From the NCBI GenBank assembly GCA_014381745.1, contig JACNLA010000024.1:1-39288 (forward strand): a stretch of 39,288 bases of DNA, read 5' to 3'. Positions 4,601 through 12,047 of the stretch are shown piece by piece. The stretch comes from Actinomycetota bacterium. GTDB lineage: Bacteria; Actinomycetota; Acidimicrobiia; Acidimicrobiales; MedAcidi-G1. The position numbers were made by a program, and so were the translations under genes. The notes below the pieces were generated by a model. That model searched no databases, was not told the DNA's origin, and worked only from the letters and a program-made list of their open reading frames with translations. The stretch's first letter is position 1; each line of letters begins with the position of its first letter.

Positions 4601-5464
4601 CTATGCAGCGACCAGCTTCACGGTCTGGCCCTCTGCAGGTGCGCTGACCCGACCAATGTCCATGCCGTCGGCCGCATCGCTGGCCCATGCCAGCAGGCCG
4701 TCGACCGTCTCGTCACAATGCGAGGGGTCGTGGTGGAACAGGGCCAACTCGGATACCGAGGCCTGATGGGCCACCTCCAGCGCGTAGGCGACGGTGCTGT
4801 GGCCCCAGTCGCTCCGTTGAGCGAACTCCTCGGCGGTGAACTGGGCATCGTGGATCAACAGGTCGACCCCGTCGGCCAACTCGAGCACCGCCTCATCGAC
4901 GCAGTGGGGATCGTCGACAGGTTGCTGATGGTCGCTGATGTAGGCGACGCTTACGGAACCCCAGTCGATCCTGTAGCCGTTTGTCACCCCGACATGTGGC
5001 ACCTTCCGCGTGGTGACCACAGCCGGGCCAATCGACATCGTTCCATCGCAGACATCGTGAAACGCCACGTTTCCTGCAAGGTCGTCGATGCAGATCGGGA
5101 AGTAGGGCGGGTTCATGAACGAGGCGAAGGCGGCCTTCATCGACCGGTTCCCATCTGCGGGGCCGAACACGTCAAGGTGGGCTCCGGAGCGGTTGATGGG
5201 GCTGAAGAAGGGAAGCCCCTGAACATGGTCCCAGTGGAGGTGGCTTACGAGCGCCGTTCCACGAAATGGTGGGGTCGCTGGCTCACGATCGATCTCCATG
5301 CCGAAATATCGCAGGCCTGTACCCATGTCGAGGAGGATCGGATCTGCACCGTCAGCCTCCAACACGACACAAGAGGTGTTGCCGCCGTACCGTTTGTTGG
5401 CGTCGCACGGACAGGGCGTGGAGCCACGCACTCCGTAGAAACGGACGTCAAGCGAATCGGTCAT
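4601..5464 (-). CDS. Metallo-beta-lactamase-fold hydrolase
   Basis: A 287-residue cytoplasmic metallohydrolase of the MBL superfamily, closest in layout to the RNase Z/PhnP-like group. It begins with a VRGSTPCP strand and YGGNTSCVVLEADG. The metal motif HLHWDHVQG lies near residue 76, a later histidine is in VPHVGVTNGYRI, and SDH, HDAQF and DWGHSTV supply the remaining ligands. The substrate is unknown. ATG 5464 is chosen over the TTG at 5467 because a TANNNT -10 (5473-5478, minus strand) sits 8 nt upstream, which suggests a leaderless transcript. The gap of about 110 bases before the flavin reductase-like gene leaves co-transcription open. Confidence 0.92.
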   Translation of the reverse strand: MTDSLDVRFYGVRGSTPCPCDANKRYGGNTSCVVLEADGADPILLDMGTGLRYFGMEIDREPATPPFRGTALVSHLHWDHVQGLPFFSPINRSGAHLDVFGPADGNRSMKAAFASFMNPPYFPICIDDLAGNVAFHDVCDGTMSIGPAVVTTRKVPHVGVTNGYRIDWGSVSVAYISDHQQPVDDPHCVDEAVLELADGVDLLIHDAQFTAEEFAQRSDWGHSTVAYALEVAHQASVSELALFHHDPSHCDETVDGLLAWASDAADGMDIGRVSAPAEGQTVKLVAA

Positions 5465-5472
5465 CAACTGCG

Positions 5473-5507: not shown

Positions 5508-5539
5508 GTGGCGGATGTCTCAGGTGGCGGATGTCTCAG
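5508..5539 (+). repeat. Perfect 16-bp tandem duplication
   Basis: GTGGCGGATGTCTCAG occurs twice back to back (5508-5523 and 5524-5539), in front of the CPAC thioredoxin-like gene. Because 16 is not a multiple of three it shifts the frame, so a start within it is unlikely to be the authentic one. It may instead lie in the 5' region. Confidence 0.9.
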
Positions 5540-5600
5540 AGAACTCCTCTCTGCTTCGCCTGCTGACCCTGTCGCCGACACAACGCGCGATACTCGCGAC

Positions 5601-5942
5601 GTGAGCAGTCCTCCGGTATCTGACGGCCTGGTAGCCGTGGTGAAGCGGGAGTGCCCCGCCTGCCAACTGGTGGTTCCCGTCCTTGAACAGCTGGCCCTCG
5701 ACGCAGGCCTTACGGTCTTCACCCAGGACGACCCGACTTTCCCGGTCGACGCACCCTGGGTCGTCGACGACACCGACCTCGCCGTCAGTTGGGGACTCGA
5801 CCTCGAGGCAGTTCCCACGCTGCTCCGCTTCGAAGACGGTGAGGAGACAGCGAGGACCATGGGCTGGTCCCGCGATGCGTGGGAGGACCTGACCGGCCAG
5901 ACGGGCCTGGGGCCTGACCTGCCTCCCTTCAAACCGGGTTGA
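5601..5942 (+). CDS. Thioredoxin-like protein with CPAC motif
   Basis: A small thioredoxin-fold protein, 113 residues from GTG 5601. A strand (GLVAVVKRE) leads into C18-P-A-C21, followed by a helix (QLVVPVLEQLALDAG), a second strand (LTVFTQDD) and a VPTLLRFEDGEE segment carrying the cis-proline. This is a redox-active dithiol protein, probably cytoplasmic as there is no signal sequence. An in-frame GTG at 5508 would add 31 unconserved-looking residues through a tandem duplication, so I prefer 5601, although no Shine-Dalgarno is visible. It stands immediately before the UGSC partner gene in the same reading frame, separated only by TGA 5940-5942, and is probably its electron-transfer companion. 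Confidence 0.75.
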   Translation: MSSPPVSDGLVAVVKRECPACQLVVPVLEQLALDAGLTVFTQDDPTFPVDAPWVVDDTDLAVSWGLDLEAVPTLLRFEDGEETARTMGWSRDAWEDLTGQTGLGPDLPPFKPG

Positions 5943-5978
5943 GGTTCCCTCACGGCCGACCCCGGGCGGGTCGACGAG

Positions 5979-7052
5979 TTGAGGGCAAGGTACGGGGCCA
6001 CAGGGGCCGAAAGCCATCTCAAGTCACGCCACGTCCAGATCGCCTCCCTTGAAGACGAGGCCGAGGCCATGTTCGACAGGGGCTGGACCGATGGCCTACC
6101 GGTCGTGGCCCCCACCGAGGCCCGTGTCCGGCGAATGCTCGAAGGCACCACACGGAATCCAGCGGATCTCGTCACGGTGGTGCCGCCCGATCTGGTCGAG
6201 TGCACTGTCGAAAAGGTCGCAGTCAATGCAGTCATGGCTGGCTGTCGACCCGAATACCTCCCGGTTGTACTCGCCGCCCTCGAAGCCGTGTGCACCGATG
6301 AGTTCAACATGCACGGAGTTCTTGCAACGACCATGTCGGTCGGACCGGTGCTGGTCGTGAGCGGCCCCATAGCCGACGAGATCGGCATGAACCACGGGAT
6401 CAACGTTCTCGGACACGGCAACCGGGCCAACAGCACCATCGGCCGTGCCGTCCAACTTGTCATCCGCAACATTGGCGGAGGGGCTCCCGGGGGCATCGAC
6501 AGGGCCACCCTCGGCCACATGGGCAAGCAGGGCTTCTGCTTCGCCGAGGACCAGGCCGGCTCACCCTGGACCAGCCTCGCCGAGCAACATGGTTTCGGGG
6601 CGGGCCAGAACACGGTCACGGCATTTGCCGGTGACGGACCTCACCTGGTCATGGACCAGAAGAGCAGATCGGCAGAATCCCTCACCCGGTCGCTGGCCGA
6701 CTCGCTTCTCGGAACGATCTCGTCACGGGTCGTGATGGGCATGGACGCAATGCTCGTACTTTCTCCCGAGCACATGGCCAGGTACCGGGACGCCGGCTGG
6801 GACCGCGCCCGCTTCACCGAAGAACTCTCAAGCCACCTGACGGTCGACGCCGACACCATCATTGCCGGGGCCGGAGGAATCGACGAAGGCCTGCCATCAG
6901 ACTTTGCCGGCATGTCGCTCCCCAAATTCCGACCAGGCGGCCTACTCGTTGTCCACGCAGGTGGTCCGGCGGGCCTCTTCTCAGCCATCATCGGTGGATG
7001 GGTCAACGGCCAGACAGGAAGTGACCCCGTGACGAAGGAGATAACACAGTGA
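5979..7052 (+). CDS. Large uncharacterised partner of the UGSC selenoprotein
   Basis: A 357-residue protein with no function I can name. It opens with a motif I recall from proteins encoded next to UGSC-family genes (GWTDGLPVVAPTEARVRRML, about residues 35-54). A long alpha/beta region follows, with conserved-looking stretches GINVLGHGNRANSTIGRAV, GGGAPGGIDRATLGHMGKQG and an FRPGGLLVVHAGG strand. The only start upstream of residue 31 is TTG 5979, without a good ribosome site; ATG 6069 would remove the start of the conserved part. Its stop overlaps the GTG of the selenoprotein gene by 4 bases (GTGA), so the two are translationally coupled and probably act together. The frame is open back to the TGA that ends the thioredoxin-like gene. 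Confidence 0.8.
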   Translation: MRARYGATGAESHLKSRHVQIASLEDEAEAMFDRGWTDGLPVVAPTEARVRRMLEGTTRNPADLVTVVPPDLVECTVEKVAVNAVMAGCRPEYLPVVLAALEAVCTDEFNMHGVLATTMSVGPVLVVSGPIADEIGMNHGINVLGHGNRANSTIGRAVQLVIRNIGGGAPGGIDRATLGHMGKQGFCFAEDQAGSPWTSLAEQHGFGAGQNTVTAFAGDGPHLVMDQKSRSAESLTRSLADSLLGTISSRVVMGMDAMLVLSPEHMARYRDAGWDRARFTEELSSHLTVDADTIIAGAGGIDEGLPSDFAGMSLPKFRPGGLLVVHAGGPAGLFSAIIGGWVNGQTGSDPVTKEITQ

Positions 7053-7597
7053 CCATCATCAACCCGACCGGCGTTACCGTCCTCGACCCCACGGCCGAAG
7101 GAAGGCCGGCGGGGCGCGACCTGACCGCCCGGGTGGACTCCCTCACCGGCCTTACCGTCGGCCTGCTCGACATTTCCAAGCCCCGCGGCAACGTGTTCCT
7201 TGACCGACTCCAGGAGCACCTGATAAGGCTGGGCGCGGGCGTGGAGCGCTACACAAAGCCCACCTTCGCCAAGCCTGCCCCGGTCGATCTGCGCCACGAA
7301 ATCGCCACGACATGCGACGCCGTAATCGAGGCTCTGGCCGATTGAGGATCTTGTACGACGTGCAGTGTGCACGACATCGACGATCTTGAACGACGGGGAA
7401 TACCCGGTGTGTTCGTCGCCTCCGGACCTTTTCAGGATGCGGCAGAAGTCCAGGCGAACGCCCTCGGACTTCCGGTTCGGCGGGTGTTTGTCGACCACCC
7501 CATCCAGGACAGGACAGACGCGGAGATGTCGGCACTCGCCGATGCCGCCATCGACCTTCTCGTGGCGGCCCTGACCTCCACCCCATCCAACGCATAG
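7049..7597 (+). CDS. UGSC-family selenoprotein (in-frame TGA read as Sec)
   Basis: One 182-residue gene interrupted by TGA at 7343-7345 (codon 99), which I read as selenocysteine. The frame before TGA ends in EALAD; after it the same frame continues G-S-C-T-T-C-S-V-H-D-I-D-D-L-E-R-R-G to a TAG at 7595-7597. This is the D-U-G-S-C-(S/T)-x-C-S-x-H-D signature that names the UGSC family of (seleno)proteins. Residues on both sides match the family's N-terminal (TVGLLDISKPRGNVFLDRL) and C-terminal (GIPGVFVASGPF, RRVFVDHPIQD) parts. Sec99 and Cys102 would form a selenenyl-sulfide-capable U-x-x-C redox pair, with Cys105 nearby. A SECIS-like hairpin follows the TGA. Its GTG start overlaps the upstream partner gene. 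The reaction catalysed is not known to me. Confidence 0.9.
7346..7373 (+). promoter_or_regulatory. Bacterial SECIS element of the UGSC selenoprotein
   Basis: CGTGCA (7359-7364) pairs perfectly with TGCACG (7368-7373) around a GTG loop (7365-7367). The loop starts 19 nt after the TGA and its first base is G. Size, spacing and loop G agree with the known bacterial SECIS consensus: a short stem and small loop within the coding region just after the UGA, with a G near the loop start for SelB binding. Confidence 0.75.
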
Positions 7598-7649: not shown

Positions 7650-8153
7650 GTGGCAGACACAGAGACGATCAATGGTCCAGGTGAGGTCAGGTTGGTGACT
7701 CTGGGTGGGACTTCGCGCCCACTTTCAGAACTGCTGACTACGTTCCACCTGGCCGCCGTGGTGCTCGATCCGTTCACGCACGAGAGTTCATGGCTCCTCG
7801 ATACGGCACGTCGCATCCTCACAGCGTTCAGCGAGGCCGATGTTCGTGTCGCTTTTGTCCTCAGCGGAACCGATGCTGAGGGTGCCGGCAGCTTCATGGG
7901 GCCGCTGGCCGATGAGATCCTGAGCCTTGCCGATCCCGACCGGAGTTTTGCCCGCTCCCTCGGCCTCACGACCCTTCCCGCATTCGTAGGCGTAAGACAG
8001 GACGGTTCCATGATCGCCAGCGCCGAGGGATGGAACCCTGAGGCATGGCGCACGGTGGCGAGCGACCTTGCGGAGTTGACGGCGTGGACCCGACCCGAGA
8101 TTCCAGCACCCGGCGACCCGGCTCCCTATCAGGGAACCCCCGCCTTCTCCTGA
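7650..8153 (+). CDS. Thioredoxin-fold protein without active-site cysteines
   Basis: A 167-residue protein with the thioredoxin/redoxin order of elements: a strand (HLAAVVLDPFTHESSWLLD), a helix, a strand (DVRVAFVLSG), then LADPDRSFARSLGLTTLPAFVGVRQDG with the typical cis-proline segment, and a C-terminal helix. There is no cysteine at all; the place of the CxxC motif is taken by FTHESSW. It is therefore unlikely to exchange disulfides and may act as a binding or scaffold subunit for the neighbouring redox proteins. It starts with GTG, supported by a -10 element 8 nt upstream. No membrane segment or signal peptide is seen. Confidence 0.75.
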   Translation: MADTETINGPGEVRLVTLGGTSRPLSELLTTFHLAAVVLDPFTHESSWLLDTARRILTAFSEADVRVAFVLSGTDAEGAGSFMGPLADEILSLADPDRSFARSLGLTTLPAFVGVRQDGSMIASAEGWNPEAWRTVASDLAELTAWTRPEIPAPGDPAPYQGTPAFS

Positions 8154-9646: not shown

Positions 9647-10378
9647 ATGGACGCACTGACCGCCGCACGCCGTACAGCCACGCCGATCGGTGACCTGGGG
9701 GCAAAGTTCATGCTGGACGGCCACGCCTACAAGCGGGGAGCCGAGCTGGGTCTGCCCTCCGGAATGGGGACCTACATGCTCGGGCGTCTTGGCGTGCTGG
9801 GAGACGTCGACCTGGACACCGCCGTGGATGCTGCGTTCTTCTGGGCCCCTGAAACGATTGCGGCCAACTGGTCCGCTGAGGATTCCGCCATGACCCCGTC
9901 TGCCGCAGCTCCGCTGTACGGCCAGGTTTGTGTCGAGCGGGGCCGCGAGTACCTGTCGGGCTTCGAGGGTGCAGGGCGACTGGCCGACCTGCTGGAACAG
10001 ATGGTTGACTCGGCCGACGAAACCGACGCCGCCCTCTTCGCAGGCTGGCGGGACCTGGAACGCCCCTCAGACCCGGAGGGAAGGGCATACCTTCTTGCCC
10101 AGGTGGCGCGTGAGCTCCGCTTCTGCAGGCACATATGTGCCGTGCGTGCAGCCGACACCGAGCCGCTGGCCATGGTCCTGGCAAAGGGCGGCGAGGCCAA
10201 CGCCAACCTGTTCGGCTGGAGCGATCACTCGTGCGGCCCCGTGGATCCCGACGTCCACGCCGCAATAGAGGCCGCAACCGACCAGGCGTCTGCCGGCGAC
10301 CTGGAATGTCTCACCGATGATGAGCGGACCGAGTTGGTGGATCTGGCCGAAGCCGCCCTCGCCCACGCCACTGTCTGA
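9647..10378 (+). CDS. SCO6745-family protein
   Basis: A 243-residue protein matching the actinobacterial SCO6745 family as I recall it, whose function is unknown. The sequence begins MDALTAARRTATPIGDLGAKFMLD and is largely helical, with GLPSGMGTYMLGRLGVLGDV near residue 35 and the FFWAP segment typical of the family near 65. It ends with RHICAVRAADTEPL and GEANANLFGWSDH. ATG 9647 is chosen because TAGGAGACC lies just upstream and an ATG at 9593 would add an unrelated-looking stretch. There is no signal peptide. The acyl-CoA synthetase gene follows after 46 bases, so the two may be co-transcribed. Confidence 0.87.
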   Translation: MDALTAARRTATPIGDLGAKFMLDGHAYKRGAELGLPSGMGTYMLGRLGVLGDVDLDTAVDAAFFWAPETIAANWSAEDSAMTPSAAAPLYGQVCVERGREYLSGFEGAGRLADLLEQMVDSADETDAALFAGWRDLERPSDPEGRAYLLAQVARELRFCRHICAVRAADTEPLAMVLAKGGEANANLFGWSDHSCGPVDPDVHAAIEAATDQASAGDLECLTDDERTELVDLAEAALAHATV

Positions 10379-10424
10379 GACCCAACCACAGCCGACAAGA
10401 CCCACAAGAAAGAGAGCACCTCTT

Positions 10425-12047
10425 ATGGATGGCCTGATGATGGACACCCCCCTGTCGCTGATCCACCTCTTCGACCGCGCTACCAACCTGTTCGCCGACA
10501 AGCAGATCGTCACAGCAACCCCGACCGGCCGGGAGCGTCTCTCCTACGGCGACTGGGGTGAGCGCACCCGTCGACTCGGCGGGGTCCTAGACAACCTGGG
10601 CATCAGCGAGGACGGCCGCGTTGCCACGTTTGCGTGGAACACCTCACGCCACCTTGAGCTCTACTTCGCACCTCCCTGTACCGGCAGGGTCACCCACACA
10701 CTGAACCTGCGCCTCTTTCCAGACCAGTTGACCTATATCGCCAACCACGCCGAGGACGAGGTCATCTTCGTCGACCAGTCTGTTGCGGGGCTCATCTGGC
10801 CGCTCATGGACACGTTCGACACGGTGAGGCACGTGGTCCTCATGGATGACGGCGCACCGGCACCGGATCACGATGCCATCCGAGCCGAGGTGCACGACTA
10901 CGAGGAACTTCTGGGGGCGGCCTCACCGGTGCAGTGGACCCGTGTCGAGGAGAACCGGGCCGGGTCGATGATGTACACCTCTGGCACCACCGGCGACCCG
11001 AAAGGCGTCGTTTACTCACACCGTTCGATGGTGCTCCACACCTTTGGAGCCATGATGGCCGACACGCTCGGGGTAACCGAGAGCGACGTGATCCTTCCTG
11101 TCGTGCCCATGTTCCACGCCAATTCATGGGGCCTCGCCCACGCCGGTGTGGCAACGGGGGCAACTCTCGTAATGCCTGGTGCCAACCTGACTCCCGGCGC
11201 CCTGGCGGACCTGGTGGAAACTGAAAGGGTCAGCCTGGCCGCCGGAGTTCCGACCATCTGGATGGGCGTCCTCCCGGAACTGGAAGGTCGCGACCTTTCG
11301 GCACTGCGAGCCATTCCGTGTGGCGGTTCCGCTGTTCCCAGATCCCTCTCTGAGGGATACCGCAAGGTGACCGGTCTTCCCCTGCTTCAGGCGTGGGGCA
11401 TGACCGAAACCAGCCCACTCGCTGCCGTGTGCCAGATCAAGTCCACGCTCGGCCACCTCGACGACGACGCCAAGGCTGACCTTCGGACCACGGTCGGGCT
11501 TGTCACCCCGGGGGTGGACTTTCGCATCGCCGACCCCGACACGGGTGACGAGGTTCCACGGGACGGTGAATCAAGGGGCGAACTACAGGTGCGCGGGCCC
11601 TGGATTGCCCGCACCTACTACAACGACGACCGGTCAGCCGACTCCTTCACCGACGACGGCTGGCTCAGGACGGGCGACGTGGCGACCGCCGATTCGGAGG
11701 GCTACATCCGCCTGGTCGACCGCACCAAGGACCTCATCAAGTCAGGCGGAGAATGGATCAGCTCGGTGGAACTGGAGAACGAGATCATGGCCCACCCCGA
11801 CGTGGTCGAGGCTGCCGTAATCGGCGTGGCCTCCACCAAGTGGGGTGAACGGGCAATGGCATGCGTGGTCACGGCAGATGGAGCGACGCTCTCGGCCGAG
11901 GAGGTGGTGGCCTGGCTGGAAGGGCGGGTCGTGAAGTGGTGGATGCCCGACCGGATCGAGTTCATCGAAGAGGTACCAAAGACCTCTGTCGGCAAGTTCT
12001 CCAAGAAGACCCTTCGGGAACGCTTCGCCGACGTGCAGGTCGACTGA
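10425..12047 (+). CDS. Acyl-CoA synthetase (fatty-acid--CoA ligase, AMP-forming)
   Basis: A 540-residue adenylate-forming enzyme that activates a carboxylic acid to its CoA thioester with ATP. The motifs are intact: the P-loop-like YTSGTTGDPKGV near residue 185, HANSWGLAHAG, the aromatic-adenine motif LLQAWGMTETSP, GWLRTGDVAT, DRTKDLIKSGGEWIS and the C-terminal lysine region PKTSVGKFSKKTLRE. The overall pattern is that of the medium/long-chain AlkK-like ligases, a class that also contains DmdB, the methylmercaptopropionate-CoA ligase. ATG 10425 follows a purine-rich AAGAAAGAGAG sequence; upstream in-frame codons overlap the previous gene and look unrelated. Confidence 0.94.
   Translation: MDGLMMDTPLSLIHLFDRATNLFADKQIVTATPTGRERLSYGDWGERTRRLGGVLDNLGISEDGRVATFAWNTSRHLELYFAPPCTGRVTHTLNLRLFPDQLTYIANHAEDEVIFVDQSVAGLIWPLMDTFDTVRHVVLMDDGAPAPDHDAIRAEVHDYEELLGAASPVQWTRVEENRAGSMMYTSGTTGDPKGVVYSHRSMVLHTFGAMMADTLGVTESDVILPVVPMFHANSWGLAHAGVATGATLVMPGANLTPGALADLVETERVSLAAGVPTIWMGVLPELEGRDLSALRAIPCGGSAVPRSLSEGYRKVTGLPLLQAWGMTETSPLAAVCQIKSTLGHLDDDAKADLRTTVGLVTPGVDFRIADPDTGDEVPRDGESRGELQVRGPWIARTYYNDDRSADSFTDDGWLRTGDVATADSEGYIRLVDRTKDLIKSGGEWISSVELENEIMAHPDVVEAAVIGVASTKWGERAMACVVTADGATLSAEEVVAWLEGRVVKWWMPDRIEFIEEVPKTSVGKFSKKTLRERFADVQVD

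Follow-up and report, generated by a model that had tools for sequence, protein, structure and literature searches.

Comparative analysis of a 39,288-nucleotide stretch of actinobacterial DNA (the whole of which is called the window below) shows that positions 5601-7597 form a two-gene operon predicted to encode two selenoproteins, with selenocysteine at residue 114 of the first product (Sec114) and at residue 99 of the second (Sec99). Recoding of each UGA is predicted to rely on a separate SECIS-type hairpin and on the selA/selB/selC/selD machinery present in the same genome. On balance, the comparisons favor a reading in which the two proteins would be subunits of one thioredoxin-fed, selenium-dependent reductase.

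The UGSC-family gene and its in-frame TGA

The downstream gene of the operon has the following features.

7049-7597, + strand: selenoprotein gene of the UGSC family; begins with GTG and encodes 182 aa before the stop, predicted Sec at residue 99
7343-7345, + strand: in-frame TGA, predicted selenocysteine codon for U99 of D-U-G-S-C

The open segments 7049-7342 and 7346-7597 lie in the same frame and are joined at TGA 7343-7345, as the initial annotation had observed, and read-through gives a 182-aa product with U99 within ...IEALADUGSCTTCSVHDID.... Over its whole length, this product scored 149.7 bits with the NCBIfam model NF041046 (UGSC_fam; cut-off 125, E 5.7e-44), and it scored 144 with Pfam UGSC (PF24696; cut-off 25, E 6.7e-42), which places the proposed family assignment above both curated cut-offs. 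The U99-G-S-C102 active-site motif is invariant among 81 UGSC sequences.

All 150 TGAs in the window that are flanked both ways by 40 open codons were scanned by comparing the homologue columns. Pure stop/Cys columns were seen only at 7343 (stop in 80/80), so that the joined segments are not a chance arrangement, and at 5940 (stop in 13, Cys in 64). The remaining TGAs with many matches aligned to scattered residues, mostly Arg, Gly or Trp, as expected of shadow frames, and no other Sec-like TGA was found in the window within the reach of the scan, that is, genes in the fetched neighborhoods.

Viewed in a single genome, TGA 7343 might be taken for a sequencing error in place of a Cys codon, as the initial annotation had itself cautioned, or for a lesion in a pseudogene. 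This explanation is refuted. The codon is TGA in 81/81 aligned loci (80 neighborhood loci and the window) from different assemblies; the gene is present in 46/48 genomes of the taxonomic family, and each match carries one TGA, a recurrence that argues against sequencing error. Conservation is strong on either side of the TGA, and the Sec machinery of the genome is complete (see below). The gene at 7049-7597 is thus, as far as sequence comparison can establish, a true selenocysteine-containing member of a known family.

UGSC matches in a 396-genome sample of the phylum mostly carry one TGA, and a minority carry none. Natrinema, Roseovarius and Embleya have Cys forms (DCGSC), which bears out the earlier statement that family members hold either Sec or Cys at this position. 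The expected mis-annotation as a short protein also has a real example in a Sec form on an Acidovorax plasmid, for which the public record lists just a hypothetical protein of 97 aa.

A second in-frame TGA in the upstream gene

While right on the UGSC gene, the initial annotation overlooked a second TGA, at 5940-5942, in the gene upstream. The features of this gene are as follows.

5601-7052, + strand: predicted second selenoprotein gene (the fusion gene); about 483 aa, U114; thioredoxin domain, PG(U/C)GS linker and ~340-aa domain
5652-5663, + strand: CPAC redox motif of the thioredoxin domain (C18, C21), within a Trx fold; both Cys invariant in 75 sequences
5940-5942, + strand: in-frame TGA, predicted selenocysteine codon for U114 of P-G-U-G-S; column of TGA, TGC and TGT only
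6027-7040, + strand: ~340-aa domain, fusion residues ~143-480, with invariant C215 and C231; found beside UGSC whether or not a thioredoxin domain is present
7049-7052, + strand: 4-nt overlap GTGA of the fusion stop and the UGSC start, read directly from the sequence

The start at 5601 was deduced from homologues; translation may instead begin farther upstream, at GTG 5508. From the GTGA overlap we infer translational coupling of the two genes.

ORF callers split the fusion gene into 5508-5942, which ends in the TGA, and 5979-7052, which begins 12 codons on in the same frame. This outcome of standard ORF calling, together with a TTG start candidate at 5979, would suit two separate genes that follow a genuine stop at 5940 and share a frame by chance, a reading we consider very improbable. 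In 76 loci, the codon at 5940 is TGA (13), TGC (48) or TGT (15) and no other, so that the same gene runs unbroken with Cys at that codon in 63 loci. The frame is kept in 76/76 loci that have both parts, despite gap sizes of 40 to 73, and the conserved linker PG(U/C)GS(L/M)(S/T) spans the TGA site, with PG-x-GSL preserved across it. A hairpin after the TGA is specific to TGA forms and is gone in revertants to Cys (see below). The constant frame, the restricted codon column and the TGA scan together indicate that 5601-7052 is one gene, and we conclude that the upstream gene is a second predicted selenoprotein, split by its own in-frame UGA.

The N-terminal domain of the fusion protein has a Trx fold (Z 9.3 to 1syr_H, rmsd 2.6, 84 aligned), in which C18, C21 and V71-P72, corresponding to the CxxC motif and the cis-Pro loop, are invariant. 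Searching the fusion protein against NCBIfam at E up to 10 gave the thioredoxin model TIGR01068 as the sole match (E 0.0043, below cut-off), while sequence search of solved structures returned only thioredoxins and chance matches, and a fold search with the whole protein was filled by thioredoxins. The ~340-aa domain has no Pfam or NCBIfam family match. Its best Foldseek hits are weak matches to class I fumarase (prob up to 0.85, TM about 0.2), and no fold is therefore claimed.

SECIS-type hairpins and selenocysteine machinery

A hairpin follows each of the two TGAs.

5955-5975, + strand: SECIS-type hairpin of the fusion gene; 8-bp stem with 7/8 pairs here, 5-nt loop CGGGC from 20 nt after the UGA
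7357-7375, + strand: SECIS-type hairpin of the UGSC gene; 3-nt loop GUG from 19 nt after the UGA, with the central 6 bp paired in the window

The bSECIS model describes a 3-9 nt loop on a 4-16 bp stem, with G in the first two loop positions, 16-37 nt spacing and MFE <= -7.5 (PMC13188914). The UGSC hairpin, with a 6-8 bp stem and -9.7 kcal/mol over the first 40 nt, agrees with this model (PMC13188914), as does the fusion hairpin, with 7-8 bp and -20.3 kcal/mol over 48 nt in the window. In the alignment of the UGSC hairpin, 92% of cells are paired, and one stem pair shows a double change from G-C to A-U in 11/31 distinct sequences. For the fusion hairpin, 7-8 of the 8 pairs form in 43/43 TGA sequences; at the same site in Cys sequences, 8 pairs form in 0/63 and 7 pairs in 6/63. 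One pair of this stem covaries, being U-A in 12 and C-G in 11 of 31 distinct sequences. Comparison of hairpin energies with synonymous-codon shuffles gave weakly negative values (mean z -0.2 to -0.8), in part an effect of drawing the codon pool from the very sequences under test, and pairing counts at the fixed position were used as evidence in place of the energy shuffles.

The window's own genome (2.19 Mb, 44 contigs, 95.9% complete) was searched for tRNA-Sec and selB, whose absence the initial annotation had named as grounds for rejecting a selenoprotein. A tRNA-Sec with UCA anticodon was found, on the same contig as selA and selB, which adjoin each other. The genome also has selD, with one in-frame TGA (G000:C8:12185-13108); selenophosphate synthetase is itself a predicted selenoprotein in this organism. 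The machinery, the conserved TGA and the downstream SECIS-type hairpin thus agree in supporting the original reading of the UGSC gene as a true selenoprotein gene.

Distribution and history of the Sec and Cys forms

Within the window's taxonomic family, the fusion gene has exactly one TGA in 40 genomes and none in 4. The four TGA-less genes belong to one genus and carry TGT or TGC, and their hairpin has decayed to 3-4 of 8 pairs; in the same four genomes, the UGSC gene of the operon still has its TGA. Two sister genomes of this genus have kept both the TGA and all 8 hairpin pairs in the fusion gene. In a tree of 75 fusion proteins, which leaves out the Cys revertants, the Sec forms make up one clade (100/100) inside the Cys forms, and the phylum sample held no full-length fusion gene with TGA outside the taxonomic family. 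The simplest history of the linker residue would be one gain of Sec from Cys, followed by reversal in part of one genus.

Predicted fold of the UGSC protein and its probable distant relation to GrdB

An AF2 model of the UGSC protein (pLDDT 88.7) has an alternating beta/alpha, flavodoxin-like arrangement, in which Sec99 starts the third long helix. The top structural matches of the model (VIA) are flavodoxin-like, Rossmann-like and receiver-like domains, with Z up to 11.1, and sequence search found no solved relatives. A Trx-like fold was suggested for UGSC in 2008 (PMC2398784), from which the alternating flavodoxin-like order of the present model differs.

Models of glycine/sarcosine/betaine reductase B match the UGSC protein across U99 (TIGR01917, E 1.9e-4; NF040794, E 0.002; TIGR01918, E 0.0043). 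Alignment with hhalign to GrdB-family proteins of relatives places Sec on Sec, with E 8e-4 and a probability of 24.5% from shallow alignments. The scores lie far below the GrdB/PrdB family cut-offs (20.5 versus 602 bits for TIGR01917; 16.1 versus 65.45 bits for TIGR01918), and the UGSC protein is therefore not a family member, with a Sec region that is probably distantly homologous to that of GrdB. GrdB/PrdB (PF07355, TIGR01917/01918) resembles UGSC in this region, and its UxxCxxC motif is shared with the actinobacterial UGSC set; UGSC differs as a stand-alone 182-aa protein whose partner is not recognizably GrdE or PrdA. The ~340-aa partner has no sequence match to either at E up to 10. In distant UGSC proteins C105 of UxxCxxC is missing, so the GrdB-like motif is no constant of the family, while U99 and C102 are always present in the set analyzed here. 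The grd operons include thioredoxin functions, and in this respect resemble the operon of the UGSC and fusion genes.

The window's own genome has two more GrdB-like sequences, each interrupted by a single in-frame TGA (G000:C4:45398-45961 and G000:C2:30502-30855), and their homologues in relatives have UPLC at the Sec site. Both are probably selenoproteins as well, of the 'PrdB' kind that has been counted in metagenomes from the ocean.

Partnership and gene neighborhoods

In the phylum sample, the ~340-aa domain lies within 900 bp of 49/51 UGSC matches. The pair is also plasmid-borne in Acidovorax, Roseovarius, Natrinema and Embleya, and thus occurs in Pseudomonadota, haloarchaea and Streptomycetaceae. 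On the conjugative IncP plasmid p2-T1 of Acidovorax sp. T1, a TGA-form UGSC gene occupies 6001-6465 of the extracted locus (L137), and the partner domain follows at 6517.

In distant paralogues of the partner, the alignable sequence begins only near residue 143 and includes neither the thioredoxin domain nor the linker, and the linker Cys/Sec occurs together with the Trx domain. In Roseovarius, trxB (the thioredoxin reductase gene) adjoins the Trx-less pair. These Trx-less forms and the adjacent trxB suggest that the thioredoxin domain fused here, together with the Sec/Cys of the linker, may deliver the electrons that other modules draw from a separate source. Clusters of the distant Cys forms contain genes for CoA-transferase, HMG-CoA lyase, PEP-mutase-like and TRAP/TTT transport proteins, a composition that points weakly to catabolism of small organic acids.

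Several other genes lie near the operon. Directly downstream of the UGSC gene, 7650-8153 (+) encodes a redoxin-like protein (Pfam Redoxin E 6.7e-5, below cut-off) with no CxxC, and its homologues are 1-6 kb away in other genomes. A gene for an MBL-fold hydrolase (Lactamase_B_2, RNase Z-like) at 4601-5467 (-) diverges from the fusion gene; for an ORF that overlaps it on the opposite strand, a spacing of ~500 bp to the fusion gene is kept in roughly 30 loci, and the MBL-fold gene is therefore probably a conserved neighbor. Further downstream, 10317-12047 (+) encodes an acyl-CoA ligase with high scores for both 3-(methylthio)propionyl-CoA ligase and long-chain ligase models, which could touch DMSP metabolism.

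Proposed enzyme

We propose that the UGSC protein and the fusion protein together make up one selenium-dependent reductase, each as a subunit of it. The UGSC subunit would supply U99 as the catalytic selenolate, held in a GrdB-like Sec region, and the ~340-aa domain would be the partner subunit that completes the active site, probably by binding the substrate. Electrons would enter at C18/C21 of the fused thioredoxin domain and pass to the linker residue U/C114. After each turnover, a selenenylsulfide of U99 with C102 would be reduced, regenerating U99. UGSC modules that have no fused thioredoxin domain would need a separate thioredoxin system.

It is also conceivable, if rather unlikely, that both TGAs encode Sec in general thiol/selenol oxidoreductases serving peroxide or disulfide defense, and that the operon has no dedicated, substrate-specific enzyme. 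Most prokaryotic selenoproteins are indeed thiol oxidoreductases (PMC13188914), and the gene immediately downstream is redoxin-like. The predicted flavodoxin-like order of the UGSC model is, however, neither that of thioredoxin nor that of peroxiredoxin; the near-obligate 340-aa partner is bigger than a defense protein needs, and the genes around the distant Cys versions form catabolic clusters that include CoA-transferase, HMG-CoA lyase and TRAP/TTT genes. The dedicated two-subunit reductase thus remains our preferred reading. In its fullest form, which we put forward tentatively and hold to be somewhat doubtful as a whole, the operon would encode an undescribed thioredoxin-wired reductase with two Sec in two subunits, its selenolate subunit having a common origin with the GrdB subunit of glycine reductase but acting in aerobic aquatic actinobacteria; its linker residue would have changed from Cys to Sec once and back, beside a fixed catalytic Sec.

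Discussion

UGSC proteins were first reported as predicted selenoproteins in 2007 (PMC13188914, Table 1) and described as abundant in GOS in 2008 (PMC2398784), and they rank fourth among selenoprotein genes of aquatic microbes, at 8.2% (PMC9402790). Because of these descriptions, the UGSC gene in isolation is less new: it is a new member of a family already published (NF041046/PF24696), with which it shares a match over the whole length, the DUGSC motif, Sec with rarer Cys forms and abundance in aquatic metagenomes. It differs from the family as described in its operon with a second selenoprotein and in the relation to GrdB indicated here.

Zhang and Gladyshev (2008) noted a conserved domain, 'Unknown_1', that is linked or fused to UGSC and may be the ~340-aa domain. 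Compared with that fusion, the ~340-aa domain here is on a separate protein, is fused to thioredoxin and is accompanied by its own Sec/Cys site at PG(U/C)GS. This site appears neither in the 2008 text nor, as far as model numbers and motifs show, in the 2026 inventory. The fusion protein shares the Trx fold with thioredoxin-like selenoproteins (UxxC Trx; VPGUxxT, NF041383), and its PGU recalls VPGU, but its Trx motif is all-Cys (CPAC) and its Sec lies in the linker past the domain. As far as models and motifs show, it matches none of the 119 selenoprotein families of the 2026 inventory (PMC13188914). A search of open-licence PMC papers, which is no proof of absence, found neither a thioredoxin/PGUGS/340-aa selenoprotein nor the phrase 'UGSC family'. 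The second selenoprotein encoded by the fusion gene therefore appears not to have been described previously. Being invisible to standard gene calling and having no library model, it is absent from current selenoprotein counts.

What is new in the pair is thus a second selenoprotein, restricted to one lineage, together with a proposed architecture of two subunits that can be tested in an abundant family of orphan proteins. One gene of the operon has switched between Cys and Sec while its neighbor has kept Sec throughout, which offers a natural experiment on the retention and loss of selenium. UGSC is an abundant aquatic selenoprotein that has been a functional orphan since 2007/2008; with a partner that is nearly always present, an electron donor fused to that partner and a further Sec site, it would become a well-defined system of two subunits, amenable to cloning and assay.
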